In this document: positions 33,865 to 43,324 of the stretch, one piece after another
How the letters are laid out: each line of letters starts with the position of its first letter
How positions within the stretch are numbered: the first letter of the stretch is position 1
From: Methanobacteriota archaeon
GTDB taxonomy: Archaea; Thermoplasmatota; Poseidoniia; Poseidoniales; Thalassarchaeaceae
Assembly: GCA_016845365.1 (NCBI GenBank)
Contig: JAERST010000001.1
Span: 1 to 64,000, forward strand
Length of the DNA: 64,000 nucleotides
Direction of reading: 5' to 3'
Program-made: the position numbers and the translations under genes
The notes under the pieces: model-generated
Database searches by the model: none
Told to the model about the DNA's origin: nothing
What the model saw: only the letters and a program-made list of their open reading frames with translations

Positions 33865-34563
33865 TCAATCTCTAGGACTTTGCCTCCTCACCGAATCGGC
33901 AAACTCGTCGATAATATTCTTCTCAATTAGGTGAATCATTTCGCATAGAGTTGATTTTGAAACTCCAGCCTTTTCAGCTAATGCAGTGAGGGTGATTCGG
34001 CGCGGATTGTCGTAATATCCCTCTGACACGGCTAAATCGAAGACTTCGCGTTGCCGTACTGTGAGGAGTCTAGAAGTGGATTCCTTGGAGAGAGAATGAA
34101 TTCTATGCGGGAGTTTAGATTCTTTCAATCCCTTCACCAAATTTTTCACATGGTCGTGGTCTGTGATAAACTCCCATTCAACCCACCCATCTCTAACTGT
34201 GAATGGAGTTTGAGGCGCCACTTCCGCTCTAATAAGTGGGCGTAGAAATCCACCTCCGTGGCGAGCGATAGTGACACTCATTTCGATATTGTCTCCATGT
34301 TCTTCGAAGAACGATGCACCTTCGATGCCATCATGATTTTCTAGGTCTGAGACGAAATGTTCCATCCCGTTCCCCGCAACGACAACTGTGCTCAAACCAC
34401 GCCCTTCAGGAAGGGCCATGTGTTCATCCACTCGAATTGAAATTCCTGGATTTGACCTCGTTAAATCGCCTGCCCAATGCCCTTCAGGAAGGCGAATCGA
34501 GATCAGGAGGTGCTGCATGTCGACCTTTCTCCTGACCATGCTCTCGGCTCCTCCCATATTCAT
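33865..34563 (-). CDS. Bacterio-opsin activator (HTH_10)-type transcriptional regulator
   Basis: C-terminal LTVRQREVFDLAVSEGYYDNPRRITLTALAEKAGVSKSTLCEMIHLIEKNII; ATGA overlap with the upstream gene stop. Confidence 0.9.
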   Translation of the reverse strand: MNMGGAESMVRRKVDMQHLLISIRLPEGHWAGDLTRSNPGISIRVDEHMALPEGRGLSTVVVAGNGMEHFVSDLENHDGIEGASFFEEHGDNIEMSVTIARHGGGFLRPLIRAEVAPQTPFTVRDGWVEWEFITDHDHVKNLVKGLKESKLPHRIHSLSKESTSRLLTVRQREVFDLAVSEGYYDNPRRITLTALAEKAGVSKSTLCEMIHLIEKNIIDEFADSVRRQSPRD

Positions 34564-35243
34564 TCCTCGCCTTCCGAGTCTGTGCTTTTTTTGCGGTAAA
34601 TTTCGACAGCACCTCCGCCATGTGGAAGGATGTTAACCACGATCGCAGCGAGGAGGAGACCTAGAATAATCGATTTCCAAACCGGGGGCGAATCTGTGCC
34701 AGTCCAGACTTCTTTGGGCCCTTGTGCACTTACCTCGAAGGAATTCCACCTATCATCAGAGTCAGCAGCGCCATCTCCGTCGACAGTATTGACGAAGGCG
34801 CTGAACCTGACGTTTGTGCTAGCCTTCGATGGCGCCGTCCAGGTGAATTGCCACGACCTCTGGGCGTTTCCCTCCTCAGTATGAGTCAATTCACCCTCAC
34901 TGAGTTGTACGGACCCATCGATTGGTGATAGTTGGCCGGCAGTCGATCGTAGGTTGAATCCCGCTAGAGCAACGCCCTCGGTTGCAACTGCCGAGTTTAC
35001 CCCGAGAGTGAGCTCATATGACACACTTGGCTCCCAAACCTCTGGTAATCCAGTGAGCCGAATCTCGACTGAGTCATCTGGAACTGCGTCGCCGTGGCAC
35101 AGGCAACCGGAGTCAACTGATGAACCAGAAATTCCATTCGGCAAAGCAATTGTTGTGGGAGCCAGGGCGAGTAGGATCAGCAATGAAATGACAGACACCT
35201 TCGCCAAGAAGCCACCGAAAGGAGAAGTGAGTCTTGCTCGCAT
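34560..35243 (-). CDS. Membrane-anchored choice-of-anchor-V/Reelin-like domain protein with CxCH motif
   Basis: Signal peptide; GISGSSVDSGCLCHGDAVPDDSVEIRLTGLPEVWEPSVSYELTL...QRSWQFTWTAP; C-terminal TM; the 35258 start lies inside a palindrome. Confidence 0.75.
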   Translation of the reverse strand: MRARLTSPFGGFLAKVSVISLLILLALAPTTIALPNGISGSSVDSGCLCHGDAVPDDSVEIRLTGLPEVWEPSVSYELTLGVNSAVATEGVALAGFNLRSTAGQLSPIDGSVQLSEGELTHTEEGNAQRSWQFTWTAPSKASTNVRFSAFVNTVDGDGAADSDDRWNSFEVSAQGPKEVWTGTDSPPVWKSIILGLLLAAIVVNILPHGGGAVEIYRKKSTDSEGEE

Positions 35244-35288
35244 CTGACTCCCGAACATAGCAGGCTATGTTAGCACAATATCAATCGC

Positions 35289-35304
35289 CCCGAACATGTT
35301 CGGG
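35289..35304. promoter_or_regulatory. Candidate operator palindrome CCCGAACATGTTCGGG
   Basis: Perfect 16-bp palindrome upstream of 35243 start; related sites at 39739, 39791, 42774/42822, 43875. Confidence 0.7.
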
Positions 35305-35883: not shown

Positions 35884-38163
35884 TCAGGATGGGTTATTCA
35901 AAGCCTTTTTGCATCCTGAGCAACCATCGTTCGAACCACTTGCGCATCCACAATCATCACAGTCATGAGAGCACAACATGGTTGGTTTTTCATCCCAATT
36001 ATGTGGCGGGGGAGGGGAAGTAGTAGCCCACTCGAAGGTATGACCTCCCCATGGGTCGTCTCCAGCTTCTTCTCCATGCTTCATGCTGCGGATGAAATTC
36101 CAGAAGAAAATCAATTGAGCGACGAATACCACAAGCGAGCCGATTGTTGCCAATAAGTGCTGATCGCCCCATCCTGCTTCTTCTTGATAGACGTAGATTC
36201 TACGAGGCATATCCCATAGTCCAAACAATGGGATGAATGTTAGATTGATTCCAAAGAATGTTAGCCAGAAATGCCACCATCCAAGCCGGTCATCTAGTAA
36301 ACGACCAAACATCTTTGGGTACCAATAGTAGATTCCTCCGAGGGTCATTACAGCAACTGCCCCAAGCGTGTAGTGGAAGTGTGCGACGATGAAATATGTT
36401 CCACGCAATTGAACATCCATGGCGACACTCGAGAGATACACTCCAGTGATTCCTCCAACTAGGAAGATTCCTATTGCCCCCATGACGAACACCAATGGAA
36501 GTTTCGTGAAGTCTGGTTTCGACTTGTAGAATGTGGCGATTAGACTCAAATAAATTAGAGCGAATGGGACCGAGATTAGTTCGGTTCCAATAGTCTCTAT
36601 TTTGCGGAATGTCGGGTCGATTCCAGTGATGAACATATGGTGAGCCCAAACGAGAACGCTTAGCACTGAAGCGATCATCAATGAGTAGATGATTGTCTTC
36701 CGGCCATACAGATGCTTTCGAACAAAAGTCGGTACTACCTCCATCGCCATGCCAAGTCCTGGAAGTAGAACGACGTACACCTCAGGGTGTCCAAAGAACC
36801 AGAAAATGTGTAGCCACCATGTTGTTCCATCGATGCTCGGGTCAAAGAATAGAGTGCCGAAGACACGGTCTCCAACGAGCATCAATACGGCTCCTAATAG
36901 AGCCGGGAAAACTGCGAGCATGAGTATGACTGTGAATAGGATATTCCAAGTGTACATCGGCATATCCCACATGCTCATGCTCGGAATACGATGATTTGCG
37001 ATAGTCACTAGGAAATTCACCGTTGAAGCAGTGACCGAGATAATCAGTAGAACCAACCCCGCTCCTGCAAGAGACACTCCTGAGCCTGGGCTGTACTCAA
37101 TGCTTGTAAGAGGCGAATAGAATGTCCAACCCACGTCTGCAGCACCACCGAAGAAGAATCCAGATGCTGCAACGAGACCTCCGAGGAGGAGCGTCCAGAA
37201 TGACAAGGCATTCAGCCTTGGGAAGGCCATATCCCTAGCTCCTATTTGCAATGGGACAATGTAATTCGCGAAAGCGAAGGACATCGGTGAAATTGCGAAG
37301 AGTACCATCACCGCGCCATGCATCGTTACTGCTTGATTGAATAAATCACCAGTCATGAAGTCGTTATCTGGGACAACTAATTGTAACCTAACGAGAACAG
37401 ATAATGCCAGTCCAATCATCGAGAAAAGAATAGTTGTCCAAAGATACAGCAATCCGATATCCTTGTGATTAGTCGTGGTCAACCAATGCATCAATTCCTT
37501 CTTGCCGAAGTTCTTCTTTCGGTACAGGACATATACGACAGAGAGAATTGTTCCGAGCAGAGCTCCTACGATAATCAACCATGCTGGATCTGCAATATCC
37601 ATAATTGAACCAGACCCTGCATTCTGCCCTTGCACGGTTAGGTCCACTCTATTCCATTGATCTTCGCTGGTAGCATATCCATCTCCATTCACAGAATTAA
37701 CCAGTAGAGTGAATGTTGCACTGACCTTGTCCGAAGAGGGTGCTGTCCATTCGACTTGCCAAGATCGCTGGTCATTTCCTGATTCGGTGTGAGTTGCTGA
37801 ATCATCCGAAATTTGTACTGAATCATCGAGGGGGGTAAATGTGCCTCGTGAGGCTGCTAGATTGAACCCGCCAGAATTTTCGCCACCAACGACTGGCCCT
37901 CCCTCGAATGAGATATTGACGAGGTAAGTTTGTCCAGCGATGAATTCCTCAGGTAACCCCTCGAATGTGACAGATACCTCATCGCTGGAAACGGCGCCGT
38001 GGCAATTGCATCCCGCGCCAACTGAAGGCCCGGAGATTCCACCCGGCAGGGCGGCGAATTGTGGGGTCGCAGCGAGGAGTAAGGCGAACATCGCTAAGAT
38101 CGTTAAACTCTTACTCAGATTCAATTTTCGAGAGAGATTGGTCTGGTTCTGTCCATTCCTCAA
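35884..38163 (-). CDS. Heme-copper oxidase subunit I with N-terminal CxCH choice-of-anchor-V-like domain and Cys-rich C-terminal tail
   Basis: N-term GPSVGAGCNCHGAVSSDEVSVTFEGLPEEF...; COX1 core WLTTTNHKDIGLLYLW, FWFFGHPEVYVVLLPG, YFIVAHFHYTLG; tail CSHDCDDCGCASGSNDGCSGC. Confidence 0.95.
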   Translation of the reverse strand: MRNGQNQTNLSRKLNLSKSLTILAMFALLLAATPQFAALPGGISGPSVGAGCNCHGAVSSDEVSVTFEGLPEEFIAGQTYLVNISFEGGPVVGGENSGGFNLAASRGTFTPLDDSVQISDDSATHTESGNDQRSWQVEWTAPSSDKVSATFTLLVNSVNGDGYATSEDQWNRVDLTVQGQNAGSGSIMDIADPAWLIIVGALLGTILSVVYVLYRKKNFGKKELMHWLTTTNHKDIGLLYLWTTILFSMIGLALSVLVRLQLVVPDNDFMTGDLFNQAVTMHGAVMVLFAISPMSFAFANYIVPLQIGARDMAFPRLNALSFWTLLLGGLVAASGFFFGGAADVGWTFYSPLTSIEYSPGSGVSLAGAGLVLLIISVTASTVNFLVTIANHRIPSMSMWDMPMYTWNILFTVILMLAVFPALLGAVLMLVGDRVFGTLFFDPSIDGTTWWLHIFWFFGHPEVYVVLLPGLGMAMEVVPTFVRKHLYGRKTIIYSLMIASVLSVLVWAHHMFITGIDPTFRKIETIGTELISVPFALIYLSLIATFYKSKPDFTKLPLVFVMGAIGIFLVGGITGVYLSSVAMDVQLRGTYFIVAHFHYTLGAVAVMTLGGIYYWYPKMFGRLLDDRLGWWHFWLTFFGINLTFIPLFGLWDMPRRIYVYQEEAGWGDQHLLATIGSLVVFVAQLIFFWNFIRSMKHGEEAGDDPWGGHTFEWATTSPPPPHNWDEKPTMLCSHDCDDCGCASGSNDGCSGCKKALNNPS

Positions 38164-38903
38164 GCCGACACCTCCTCATACCAGGCATCGAAATCTTCCT
38201 CACTCATTACCTCGATTTCGCCGACCATGATAGCGTGCTCATCGCCGCATAATTCTGCGCAGCGAACGGGGAAGGTTCCTATGTCGTCCGCAAGAATCCA
38301 ACCCTCATTCACCCGGCCTGGAATTGCATCAATTTTGATCCTATGGTCCGGTAGGGCGAATGAGTGGAATACGTCTCCAGCGGTGACTTCGAAGACAACT
38401 GGAACATCAACTGGAATCTTCAGTGGTTCACCGCTGGCACTGTTTATGCTCTTACCATTTGGATATTGATAATCCCAGTAATACTGGTAACCAGTCACTT
38501 CTATTGTGAATGAATCCTCGGTTGTATGATCCTCATGCTTCTCGAAGAAATCGATCGAATCGAAGGTCGTATCTGAGAGTACTAATAGGAATACGGTTAT
38601 GATAACCGAGATGACTACTGCGCCTTTCTTGCTACCCCTGACCACTGGCATTTGACCGATTTTCATCGGTTCACCTGCGTCTTCTCCATGACTGGTCACT
38701 AATAGGTAGACGAAGTAGGCATAAACAGCGATTCCAATGACGCTACCTAATCCCCAGTAGAGGCTGAATAATTCGTCGTAAACATCGGCGTGAGCGCCAG
38801 TACCACCAAGTCCTTGGAACCAATTGAAGATAGAAGCAAAAGTCATCATCAAGATCGCGATTGAACCGACAATAATTACCAATTGTTTTTTGTTGAACTG
38901 CAT
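38160..38903 (-). CDS. Cytochrome c oxidase subunit II (CuA)
   Basis: Two TMs; YQYYWDYQYPNG; FHSFALPDHRIKIDAIPGR; VRCAELCGDEHAIMVGEIEVM. Confidence 0.96.
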   Translation of the reverse strand: MQFNKKQLVIIVGSIAILMMTFASIFNWFQGLGGTGAHADVYDELFSLYWGLGSVIGIAVYAYFVYLLVTSHGEDAGEPMKIGQMPVVRGSKKGAVVISVIITVFLLVLSDTTFDSIDFFEKHEDHTTEDSFTIEVTGYQYYWDYQYPNGKSINSASGEPLKIPVDVPVVFEVTAGDVFHSFALPDHRIKIDAIPGRVNEGWILADDIGTFPVRCAELCGDEHAIMVGEIEVMSEEDFDAWYEEVSA

Positions 38904-39700
38904 TAGATCACCTCAAGATAGACGACAAAGAATAGTATAATCCAAACCACATCTACAAAGTGCCAGTAATTGGTAACCGCGCGATATCCATCGTATCTTG
39001 CCTGAGAAAACCGATTACTGCGCATTAGGAAGAATACGACCGTGAGCATTACGAGTCCGACGAGAACGTGCAATCCATGCAGTCCAGTGAGAGCAAAGAA
39101 TGCGGTGCCATATGGATGATCACTCCAGAGGAATCCAGCATGAAGATACTCGTAGGCTTGAATGACTAAGAAGGCAGTTCCAAGTACTAGAGTCAACATG
39201 AGATAATTCATCGATTTATTCCTGTCATCTTCGAAATGTGACTCCAAAGCTCGATGCGCTGTAATTCCGGAAGTTAGTAGAATCAGAGTATTGAATCCAA
39301 CAAGGAGCATATCGTGCTCAACTCCTGAAGCCGGCCAACTTCCGCCGACCGCCCCAGACGAATTGATCGTGTGCCAGCGAGTCCAGAACCAATAAGCGAA
39401 GAAGGCTGAGAACACTATCGATTCCGTGATGATAATCCAGAGCATTCCCCACGATGCGTCGCCCCATTCCTTGCCATTTGTTCTAGCCTCGCGCTGAGGC
39501 CAGAGTTCGACCTCTTCCATCACCCAAGTTCTGATTCCATAGACCAACATTGGTAGGCCCAGAATCGCCAATGGCCAAACGAGTAATGCGCCTAGGCAGA
39601 GTGTAATCCCGAGTGAGACGATCAATGGTGCTAGGCTATTGTGGACCTCTCCGTTGGATTGATGAGAGCTACCGGTCTGAAATTCAATCAAATCATCCAT
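38903..39700 (-). CDS. Cytochrome c oxidase subunit III
   Basis: Seven TMs; SIVFSAFFAYWFWTRWH, ALTGLHGLHVLVGL, TNYWHFVDVVWIILFFVVYL. Confidence 0.94.
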   Translation of the reverse strand: MDDLIEFQTGSSHQSNGEVHNSLAPLIVSLGITLCLGALLVWPLAILGLPMLVYGIRTWVMEEVELWPQREARTNGKEWGDASWGMLWIIITESIVFSAFFAYWFWTRWHTINSSGAVGGSWPASGVEHDMLLVGFNTLILLTSGITAHRALESHFEDDRNKSMNYLMLTLVLGTAFLVIQAYEYLHAGFLWSDHPYGTAFFALTGLHGLHVLVGLVMLTVVFFLMRSNRFSQARYDGYRAVTNYWHFVDVVWIILFFVVYLEVI

Positions 39701-39738
39701 CAAAACCCGCGAATGTACCAAGCACCATTACCTGAGAG

Positions 39739-39804
39739 CCGAACACATTCGGTGTAATTCGCAACATCACTACGTTCGTTTGCCGAGTTGCCGAACATGT
39801 TCGG
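39739..39804. promoter_or_regulatory. Two candidate operators between cox3 (-) and 39844 (+)
   Basis: CCGAACACATTCGG (39739-39752) and perfect palindrome CCGAACATGTTCGG (39791-39804). Confidence 0.65.
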
Positions 39805-39843
39805 GCGAAATGTTGGGAATTGTATTCCTACGAACAGTAATTC

Positions 39844-40443: not shown

Positions 40444-40866
40444 TCAAATTTGTTCGAATGTACCCTGCATTCCGAGAATTAAATTCAGAGTAGATTCTAA
40501 GCAGCCAGTCTGAGTTACTCGACCAATGATTTCACCCTCTGAGTTGATGACATAAAGGCGGCGGATTTCATCTGAGAGCAGCAAATTCAATGCCGAGCCG
40601 ACCGGAAGGTTGCGATCGATTGTGACTAAGGGATAACTCATAATTTCTCGAAGCAAAACAAAATCTGGATTCTGCTTCGGTCGAAAGCACCGACGAAGTA
40701 AATCACGCTCTGTCACCACTCCTCGCGGTTCCCCATCTACAGTTACCACAACCGACCAGACTCCCGCTTCATGCATTCGTTCCATAGCGTGAGTTACACT
40801 TGTGTCGCCGCTCAATTTAACTACGTCAGAATCCATCATTTTTTCTACATTCAGTGGGATTCTCAT
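40444..40866 (-). CDS. CBS-domain protein
   Basis: Two CBS repeats: VTHAMERMHEAGVWSVVVTVDGEPRGVVTERDLLRR and VGSALNLLLSDEIRRLYVINSEGEIIGRVT. Confidence 0.9.
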   Translation of the reverse strand: MRIPLNVEKMMDSDVVKLSGDTSVTHAMERMHEAGVWSVVVTVDGEPRGVVTERDLLRRCFRPKQNPDFVLLREIMSYPLVTIDRNLPVGSALNLLLSDEIRRLYVINSEGEIIGRVTQTGCLESTLNLILGMQGTFEQI

Positions 40867-40923: not shown

Positions 40924-42726
40924 TCAGACTCCGATCTCCTCAGCTCGGAGCCCGACTCCGAAGGTTCCAGTTGGGTTAGCGATACCTTCTATCTTCCCTA
41001 GAAGGTCAAATTGACCGTCGGCTCCAGGGGTAGATTCGTAGATTAGTAGGTAGCCATCTTCCGCCCAACAAGACACGTAGACCTTCGATCCATCATGGCT
41101 GAATTCAGGGTGAAGAGTCCTGCCATCACAGTCATCATCCTTGAGGGTCCAAACCGTTGCTGCGATTGACTCATCTGTTGCGCCCGGTGTGTAAAGCTCC
41201 CGTGCATCGAGGACATAGACCTCCTTGTTCTCCTCCATATCGGTTGACAGCACCGTATCCCACCAGATGTACGGATACTGCAGGTTAGCAGGGTCCTTCT
41301 CCCACTCCTCGGACGTAATCGGGTCACCAAATTCGTAGGTTCGTGTGAACAGAGCTGGCCCTCCAATCGGTAATTCGAACTCGTTTGTCCAAGTACGAGA
41401 ATCAATGATGTTGAGTTTGCCCTCGCCGATGCTCGGTGTGAAGATGTAATCCGCCCAAACTGCACCTGGTCCAGGGTGAGGCTTCAGTCCGACCTCGACA
41501 AGAGCGACTTCTTCGAGATTTACCGCGTCTATTACAGCCATTTGATGGCTTGTCTGGCTTGCTAGGACGTAATATTGGCCATCAGGCGTGATGAAGGCAT
41601 CGTGCAACATTCCGCCTTGATGATTGAAGACTTTCACGACTGGGAATGGGCTCTCACTCCATCGTGTCTCGTCCGCGTCAATTACCCAGATTTCTCCGAG
41701 GTCCTTCATCGCCACGAAGATGTAACCATTTGCTGTGTCGAGCGCGCTCGCTGCGCGAGAGAATTGCGGTTCTCCATCAACCCAAGGTACTGGAATCTGA
41801 TACTCCATGGCGATGTCCATACTGTGCGCATTAACGATGACGAATGAGGATGGTTCGTAATTAGTAATCGCAATCCAATTTCCGTTGGACGAGAGGGCTG
41901 TGCCTCTGCTCGATTCACCGACCTTGATGTATGCTGGGACACTCAGGTCATCAAGGTCGATCTTCGAGAACCAACCACCTCGGCTAATGAGGTAACCGTA
42001 TCGGGCCTCTTCATCGAATACAACTGTGTGAGGTTGGTATCCGAGCCCGTGAATCCGACCGACGATTTCGTCGGTCGATGTGTCGACTACAACGACGGCT
42101 TCCGCCTCTCGCTCGATAACAATCATCAGATCTCCGTTTTCCCAGCCGGGAGTTCCTCCAGGGGATGTGCTAGTATCGTAAATCTCGGTTCTGATGTCGA
42201 GCGCAGTAGTATTTCCTATCGTTGGAGCTGCCTCAACTACTTGGCCGCCAGCAGGATTTACGATTACCGTTCCCAACATGTCGTTGTGTAGGTCACCGCA
42301 GAAGACTGAACAATCATATCCGAATTCTCCAACTTGATCAGCGACAAATTCGACTGTGACAGATTCCCCTACAGGTAGGTCAACCGCGATATCATAGGCG
42401 TTTAATGAGAATGAGTGGAGCAAGTATTGGTCTTGTTCACTCATCGTCGAGGTGAATGTAATGCGCACGTGGTCGCCTTCATTCACTACAATCTCATCAG
42501 GAATAAATTCCCATTGTGCAGCTTCTACATCAAATTCCTTCCACTCACCTTGCCAGATAGGTTCAGAATCATCGGGCACACATTGGTCGCCCTCGCGCTC
42601 GGTTCCTTCGCCACAAGACAGGTCGCTACTACCGATGCACCCGCCCAACAGCGGAGCAGATATCATCAATATAGCGAGCAGCATTGCGGTCTGTGTTTTG
42701 TTTTCATTCCATGGGTTTAGGTTCAT
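40924..42726 (-). CDS. Lipoprotein fusing CuA cupredoxin domain to cytochrome d1 (NirS-like) eight-bladed propeller
   Basis: Lipobox LLGGC; CuA ligands H104 (YLLHSF) and C139-x3-C143-x3-H147-xx-M150 (CSVFCGDLHNDM); d1-like REAEAVVVVDTSTDEIVGRIHGLGYQPH, GGMLHDAFITPDGQYYVLASQTSHQMAVIDA, VGLKPHPGPGA. Confidence 0.85.
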   Translation of the reverse strand: MNLNPWNENKTQTAMLLAILMISAPLLGGCIGSSDLSCGEGTEREGDQCVPDDSEPIWQGEWKEFDVEAAQWEFIPDEIVVNEGDHVRITFTSTMSEQDQYLLHSFSLNAYDIAVDLPVGESVTVEFVADQVGEFGYDCSVFCGDLHNDMLGTVIVNPAGGQVVEAAPTIGNTTALDIRTEIYDTSTSPGGTPGWENGDLMIVIEREAEAVVVVDTSTDEIVGRIHGLGYQPHTVVFDEEARYGYLISRGGWFSKIDLDDLSVPAYIKVGESSRGTALSSNGNWIAITNYEPSSFVIVNAHSMDIAMEYQIPVPWVDGEPQFSRAASALDTANGYIFVAMKDLGEIWVIDADETRWSESPFPVVKVFNHQGGMLHDAFITPDGQYYVLASQTSHQMAVIDAVNLEEVALVEVGLKPHPGPGAVWADYIFTPSIGEGKLNIIDSRTWTNEFELPIGGPALFTRTYEFGDPITSEEWEKDPANLQYPYIWWDTVLSTDMEENKEVYVLDARELYTPGATDESIAATVWTLKDDDCDGRTLHPEFSHDGSKVYVSCWAEDGYLLIYESTPGADGQFDLLGKIEGIANPTGTFGVGLRAEEIGV

Positions 42727-42773: not shown

Positions 42774-42830
42774 CCCGAACATGAACGGCATTGCTGAGAG
42801 CATCGATTATTGGATTCGGAGATGTTCGGG
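42774..42830. promoter_or_regulatory. Candidate operator half-sites between 42726 (-) and 42866 (+)
   Basis: CCCGAACAT (42774-42782) and inverted ATGTTCGGG (42822-42830). Confidence 0.55.
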
Positions 42831-42865
42831 ACAATGATGAGATTCTATCCAAATTTACTCCACTC

Positions 42866-43324
42866 ATGGAACTAGATCTCCACACTCTTAGGAACGCTAA
42901 CCGCGATGCAGCCGCCAAATGGGCTCTAATGCAGCAGAAATGGCTATTCATTTGCGCCGATCATGAAACCGGCCATCCTTCTCAATTTGTAGCCGACCAA
43001 CTTCAACAGCGAGGAGACTCTGTCAAATTCGTCTGTCCGATATGTTCTCGTGAAGACAAACGAATCAAGGGATCATCGGTTTGGAATTCGATTGAAGATG
43101 TCGACGCCGAAGTTTCAGTCATCGCTATGTTCGGCGTCGAAGATCTCTGGTCCTTCGTTCCTGCGCTTTCACAGCGTATGCAATGGTTCGGAGATGTGAA
43201 AGCAGTATGGTTGGAGAGGCATCAGTTCGATGAGCGTTGGAATTCAGAGTTGTACGACTATGGGATAGCGGTAGTCAATGGTGAGTCTCTAGGTGTAAGA
43301 CTTCGCGACCCTGATTACAACTGA
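42866..43324 (+). CDS. Hypothetical protein (CXXC; Rossmann/CoA-binding-like?)
   Basis: Intact ORF; VKFVCPICSRED; MELDLHTL start chosen because it places the half-site upstream. Confidence 0.55.
   Translation: MELDLHTLRNANRDAAAKWALMQQKWLFICADHETGHPSQFVADQLQQRGDSVKFVCPICSREDKRIKGSSVWNSIEDVDAEVSVIAMFGVEDLWSFVPALSQRMQWFGDVKAVWLERHQFDERWNSELYDYGIAVVNGESLGVRLRDPDYN

Follow-up and report, generated by a model that had tools for sequence, protein, structure and literature searches.

A CuA-cytochrome d1 fusion lipoprotein in an archaeal nirK slot beside a terminal oxidase operon: a candidate nitrite reductase

The window analyzed here, i.e., the whole 64,000-nucleotide stretch of an archaeal contig, contains on its minus strand, at positions 40924-42726, a gene coding for a lipoprotein (P0001) in which a CuA cupredoxin domain is fused to a cytochrome d1 propeller. 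The open reading frame starts with ATG and has 600 codons, and its coordinates were verified. As read from the sequence, the 600-aa product begins with a signal peptide with a lipobox, LLGGC (residues 1-30, with C30 as the lipobox cysteine; 42637-42726), which is followed by a CGEGT...C leader (residues 38-49; 42580-42615) also present in the leaders of cupredoxin-NirK lipoproteins of related genomes. The cupredoxin domain, located by profile, PDB-sequence and model matches (approximately residues 60-160; 42247-42549), carries the CuA loop CSVFCGDLHNDM with C139, C143, H147 and M150 (42277-42312) and the fifth CuA ligand, H104 (42415-42417). The propeller, located by domain and fold searches, spans residues 196-591 (40954-42141) and contains H233 (42028-42030), H375 (41602-41604) and H417 (41476-41478). 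The cytochrome c motif CXXCH is absent from the 600-aa protein, the N-terminal place being occupied by the CuA domain.

The gene adjoins a terminal oxidase operon, COX3-COX2-COX1 (35884-39721, minus strand; domain search), from which it is separated only by a 193-aa open reading frame and a gene for a tandem CBS protein (40444-40866, minus strand; domain search and synteny). The latter is one border of the slot in which the CuA-d1 gene lies; the other border is a gene for a 177-aa CoA-binding-like protein (42791-43324, plus strand; PF13380, 8e-7, and synteny). The initial annotation of this DNA had reported the lipobox, a complete set of CuA ligands and the terminal oxidase neighborhood, and all of these are borne out together with its residue numbers for the five CuA ligands and the three propeller histidines. 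At its N terminus, the COX1 protein of the operon (35884-38163) bears a Reeler-like domain that includes the motif GCNCHG, and the neighboring gene at 34560-35258 encodes a second copy of this domain, with GCLCHG.

The N-terminal domain is, by its sequence, a complete CuA-type cupredoxin, for which a copper centre is predicted. In Pfam searches, the full protein matched Cupredoxin_1 at 9.4e-7 (residues 63-156), while the isolated domain matched Cupredoxin_1 at 8.6e-8 and COX2 at 8.1e-5. Among PDB sequences, the N-terminal part matched the CuA domain of N2O reductase (N2OR) at approximately 5e-8, and COX2 was matched too. Over the CuA domain, the full-length structural model was of low quality; a better, domain-only model superimposed on the N2OR CuA domain with a TM score of 0.75-0.80 and an rmsd of approximately 1.7. 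The side-chain ligands H, C-x3-C, H and M are placed in the cupredoxin fold as in COX2 and N2OR, and all five are invariant in 7 aligned haloarchaeal homologs.

The remainder of the protein matched Cytochrom_D1 (PF02239) over residues 196-591 with an E-value of 2.8e-45. Both profiles that the initial annotation had named for checking, Cytochrom_D1 and COX2/cupredoxin, were thus matched, and its reading of the propeller as a d1 domain is confirmed by the fold search as well: all of the best 30 structural matches of the model are NirS, NirN or NirF (8e-28 to 1e-24), and the next propeller follows at 3e-17, after a gap of seven orders. The AlphaFold2 pLDDT is mostly 80-95 across the propeller, with blocks of 55-79 beyond residue 450. 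The PDB sequences matched were those of NirF (3.7e-28), NirN (3.4e-26) and NirS (6.5e-13). When the protein is aligned with members of the NirS, NirN and NirF families, assigned by domain content and gene clusters, H233 falls on the invariant proximal ligand and corresponds to the residue that binds the d1 heme proximally in NirS. H417, the second distal catalytic histidine, aligns with a histidine common to the three families, and H375, the first distal one, aligns with a histidine found among them only in NirS, its place being taken by Asp in NirN and Tyr in NirF. Column by column, this agrees with the assignment of the three residues in the initial annotation as the heme d1 ligand and the two catalytic histidines. 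The three residues do not vary among 17 homologs and, as judged from the alignment to solved NirS, would meet in the centre of the propeller.

NirS is usually recognized by the combination of cytochrome c with d1. The window protein resembles NirS (1NIR, 1QKS/1AOF) in its d1 propeller fold, in the proximal and both distal histidines and in its extracytoplasmic location. It differs from NirS in having CuA instead of the N-terminal cytochrome c domain, in being a lipoprotein, in the placement of its d1 domain outside the NirS clade, and in the lack of a nir operon and of detectable heme d1 biosynthesis. The absence of a histidine at the first distal position, which marks NirN and NirF, does not apply to it, as H375 is present.

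In three relatives, G337 and G460 from one other genus and G481 from a further one, the slot between the CBS and CoA-binding genes holds a cupredoxin-NirK lipoprotein. All three score above the curated equivalog cut-off, the NirK of G337 reaching 349 bits against TIGR02376 (cut-off 296). In G014, which belongs to the same genus as the source genome, the slot is empty, the two border genes lying approximately 160 bp apart, and NirK is encoded elsewhere in the genome. Altogether, NirK above the TIGR02376 equivalog cut-off is present in 9 of 149 genomes of the family, and the source genome (G000, 84% complete) gave no NirK match. The N-terminal approximately 200 residues of the window protein (12-207) match the NirK lipoproteins of relatives with 30-36% identity, including the CGxGT...C leader. 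The same slot and the common N-terminal leader imply that the CuA-d1 protein stands in the place of NirK. The family cupredoxin-NirK proteins (G337, G460, G481 and others) are thus similar to it in locus, in lipoprotein leader and in having an N-terminal cupredoxin as the presumed electron entry, but their catalytic domain is a copper nitrite reductase and their cupredoxin ligands are plastocyanin-type rather than CuA. It was reported that Marine Group II nirK is expressed in suboxic water of the Gulf of Mexico (PMC5596340), which fits a nitrite-reductase setting if the host belongs to Poseidoniales (Marine Group II). A second small cupredoxin gene lies beside NirK of the relatives (L002:198-674, L007:1456-2067); its CuA-like loop CAIYCGETENGR keeps both Cys and has lost His and Met.

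Three matches to a palindrome were found in promoter regions of the window, a number reached in 0 of 100 shuffles. The perfect palindrome CCCGAACATGTTCGGG (35289-35304, 0 mismatches) is located upstream of the gene at 34560-35258 and of a gene at 33865-34563 for a Bat-like HTH_10 regulator; GCCGAACATGTTCGGG (39790-39805, 1 mismatch) is located upstream of the COX3-COX2-COX1 operon; and the half-palindrome CCCGAACATG (42774-42789, 3 mismatches to the full palindrome) lies between the CuA-d1 gene and the gene of the 177-aa protein, in their divergent promoter. No strand is assigned to these sites. Similar sites, in part degenerate with 2-3 mismatches, are present at oxidase promoters and near the NirK promoters of G337 and G481. 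The CuA-d1 gene and the oxidase operon may have a promoter motif in common, and our guess is that the HTH_10 regulator binds the palindrome. The occurrence of CCCGAACATGTTCGGG in respiratory promoters of three genera (the window, L033 and L039) beside an HTH_10 regulator gene outlines a candidate regulon.

Among the genomes of the order, a full-length d1 domain was found in one of 324, the source genome itself, and searches of the phylum and of the family revealed no second full-length copy of the protein. Scans of genome contigs with the single protein as a query and of viral sequences gave no match. A profile scan of GTDB genomes detected the lipobox-CuA-d1 layout in Natrinema, Halorubrum and Natronomonas, and a CuA-d1-type protein is encoded by 12 of 300 sampled haloarchaeal genomes; the architecture is therefore not confined to the window gene. 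The scan also detected d1-only proteins in haloarchaea and d1 proteins with an N-terminal cytochrome b5 domain in Patescibacteria. The haloarchaeal lipoproteins have the same order of lipobox, CuA and d1 and the same eight ligands, and their CuA domains are 38-43% identical to that of the window protein. They differ in having a Tat-type leader and propeller genes as neighbors, and in 7 of 7 loci a NirJ1/AhbC/NirJ-family radical-SAM gene is located downstream, approximately 4 kb from the start of CuA-d1; such a neighbor is absent from the window locus. Furthermore, the d1 domains of the haloarchaeal proteins are not sister to that of the window protein.

The closest d1 domains, with up to 41% identity, belong to Patescibacterial proteins in which an N-terminal cytochrome b5 precedes d1 (b5-d1; L068, L075, L079, L083); a protein of this type is encoded by 2 of 384 Patescibacterial genomes sampled. 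The d1 tree places the window protein as the sister of this group, with support of 97/93. Joining it to haloarchaeal CuA-d1 is rejected (AU p = 0.00018) and joining it to NirS is rejected more weakly (AU p = 0.011); this placement, suggested by the sequences, is provisional because of the long branch. The tree of the cupredoxin/CuA domains has unresolved branching. Either CuA would have joined d1 twice, or there would have been one CuA-d1 ancestor with a later swap of the electron module; these scenarios require about equal numbers of changes on the d1 tree. The b5-d1 proteins share with the window protein the three histidines and hosts in which no true NirJ was found, but they have a transmembrane anchor and cytochrome b5 where the window protein has CuA.

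The route from siroheme to heme d1 runs through NirE/CobA, NirDLGH and NirJ. The initial annotation had pointed to a search for heme d1 biosynthesis genes, and the three markers searched for, NirE/CobA, NirDLGH/AhbAB and NirJ/AhbC, were found neither in the source genome, with its completeness of 84%, nor in 38 relatives, among them 19 genomes of 90% or higher completeness and 5% or lower contamination. The best NirJ-family score in the source genome is 47 bits vs 330-374 bits in haloarchaeal carriers. NirDLGH/AhbAB gave no match, with Haloferax, Sulfolobus and Methanosarcina controls being positive; CobA gave no match in the source genome and nothing above the cut-off in the relatives, with 13 of 14 controls being positive. 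It is possible that one gene cluster was missed in the source genome, as it is 84% complete, but, judging from the genomes searched, the entry to the pathway is absent across the lineage. In three of the four Patescibacterial carriers of b5-d1, there was likewise no NirJ-family match, and the fourth has generic radical-SAM matches only. Since no d1 biosynthesis was found, heme d1 is unproven as the cofactor, and the likeliest answers are scavenged heme d1 or another tetrapyrrole. The literature searched gave no report of heme auxotrophy in Marine Group II.

With a probability of roughly 0.55, the window protein is a lipid-anchored enzyme that reduces nitrite to NO outside the cytoplasm, with an N2OR/COX2-like CuA centre in the role of cytochrome c as the supplier of electrons to the NirS-like d1 propeller; we infer the catalysis, nitrite as the substrate, the donor and the electron path. 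A donor on the membrane side or in the periplasm, possibly the same that supplies CuA of the neighboring oxidase, would reduce CuA, and CuA would pass one electron to the tetrapyrrole iron carried by H233. Nitrite bound to this iron would be protonated by H375 and H417, and NO and water would leave. Such an enzyme could serve as a low-oxygen side branch, co-regulated with the oxidase, and take the role of the copper nitrite reductase encoded at this locus in relatives. The nirK slot and the promoter motif possibly in common with the oxidase operon fit a nitrite-active enzyme, and the NirS-type histidine pattern and the NirJ-family gene next to the haloarchaeal CuA-d1 homologs also speak for this reading. 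The lack of a detectable d1 pathway, the single carrier genome in the order, the absence of cytochrome c and the placement of d1 outside NirS (AU p = 0.011) count against it. Of the proposal in the initial annotation that CuA replaces cytochrome c in an electron-transfer chimera, there stand the position of CuA at the place of cytochrome c, the three NirS histidines and, in addition, the nirK slot; the occurrence of this architecture elsewhere and the missing d1 markers require it to be amended.

It is also conceivable, though rather unlikely, that the propeller binds another tetrapyrrole, heme b or an imported precursor, the protein then being a CuA-heme protein that reacts with or senses O2 or NO. 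That no heme d1 pathway was found in the lineage speaks for this, as does the failure to find a true NirJ-family enzyme in the Patescibacterial hosts of the closest d1 relatives, but the retention of all three catalytic histidines of NirS and the position of the gene in the nirK slot argue against it. An improbable alternative, consistent with the fact that NirF and NirN give the best sequence scores, is a NirN- or NirF-like handler of heme d1, i.e., a carrier or a dihydro-d1 dehydrogenase; H375, where NirN has Asp and NirF has Tyr, contradicts this, there is no detectable d1 pathway to be served, and CuA would have no obvious role in such a protein. That the gene is an assembly chimera, a contaminant or a decaying gene, as its presence in a single genome of the 324 might suggest, is very improbable given the intact 600-codon frame on a 146-kb contig, both flanks being syntenic with relatives, the GC content of 51%, intermediate between the left and right neighbors, the N-terminal leader common to lipoproteins of relatives, and the intact ligands of both domains. 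Finally, a circularly permuted N2O reductase with CuA and a copper-cluster propeller (clade III lactonase-type N2OR) was rejected as scarcely credible: L-NosZ is the best NCBIfam match (4.2e-24), and among solved CuA domains that of N2OR comes closest, but the L-NosZ signal comes mostly from the CuA part, the propeller alone matching L-NosZ at 2.6e-7 vs 7.5e-46 for cytochrome d1, and N2OR fold matches lie 14 orders below NirS. NosZ does have CuA with the same ligand spacing, but at the other end of the protein, its propeller is related by fold only, and there is no sign of CuZ in the window protein.

A broader reading, tentative and with the odds somewhat against it, takes the CuA-d1 protein of the window and the Patescibacterial b5-d1 proteins together as d1-site enzymes of cells that are unable to make heme d1: either heme d1 would come from neighboring denitrifiers as a shared cofactor, or the NirS active site would have moved to another tetrapyrrole, and cytochrome c, CuA and cytochrome b5 would have replaced one another as the electron-entry module. 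If CuA-wired (and b5-wired) d1 enzymes are real, NO-forming nitrite reduction goes unnoticed in some archaea and Patescibacteria, NirS-type enzymes can work with different electron-entry modules, and a d1 enzyme can take the place of nirK within its locus. Since d1 synthesis is apparently lacking, the question arises of whether heme d1 is ever scavenged.

In Chloroflexi, cupredoxin-C1-C2-NirS chimeras were described with a copper domain N-terminal to NirS and two cytochrome c domains between them (PMC8756737); unlike the window protein, they retain the cytochrome c domains, and their copper domain is described as cupredoxin/plastocyanin-like. A haloarchaeal survey found that every retrieved Nir was NirK and none was NirS (PMC8400030). 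A later global survey noted a haloarchaeal NirS-like clade without cytochrome c and, for that reason, left it out of its NirS counts (PMC10999283). Neither b5-d1 nor a CuA-d1 protein lacking cytochrome c was described in the literature searched, though the supplement of the global survey may say more on the N-terminal domain.

Several loci met in the course of the searches deserve mention. The Patescibacterial b5-d1 proteins (L068:1572-3113, L075:9527-11095, L079:9557-11101, L083:2701-4248) consist of a membrane anchor, a cytochrome b5 (PF00173 at 7e-8 in L083) and a NirS-like d1 with the three histidines, and three of the four genes are adjoined by a gene for a small membrane protein that is DoxX-like by eye and has no Pfam match. 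In Thermus (L065:5488-8307), a plasmid-borne nirS is followed by a TIGR04053 radical-SAM gene with no nirDLGH annotated nearby, so that heme d1 synthesis in this host may use another NirJ-like enzyme. The haloarchaeal clusters in L069-L074 and L082 combine CuA-d1 with more d1/YVTN propellers and a NirJ-family radical-SAM gene, the one in L073 also containing a DMSO-reductase-type molybdoenzyme, and look like a little-described nitrate/nitrite respiration cluster. A match on a Natrinema plasmid was set aside, as the record shows a disrupted reading frame and the protein has nothing N-terminal to d1; L077 contains an intact relative. The L077 protein is one of four haloarchaeal d1-only proteins (L076, L077, L078, L080) that keep the three NirS histidines and, having no evident signal peptide, are possibly cytoplasmic.
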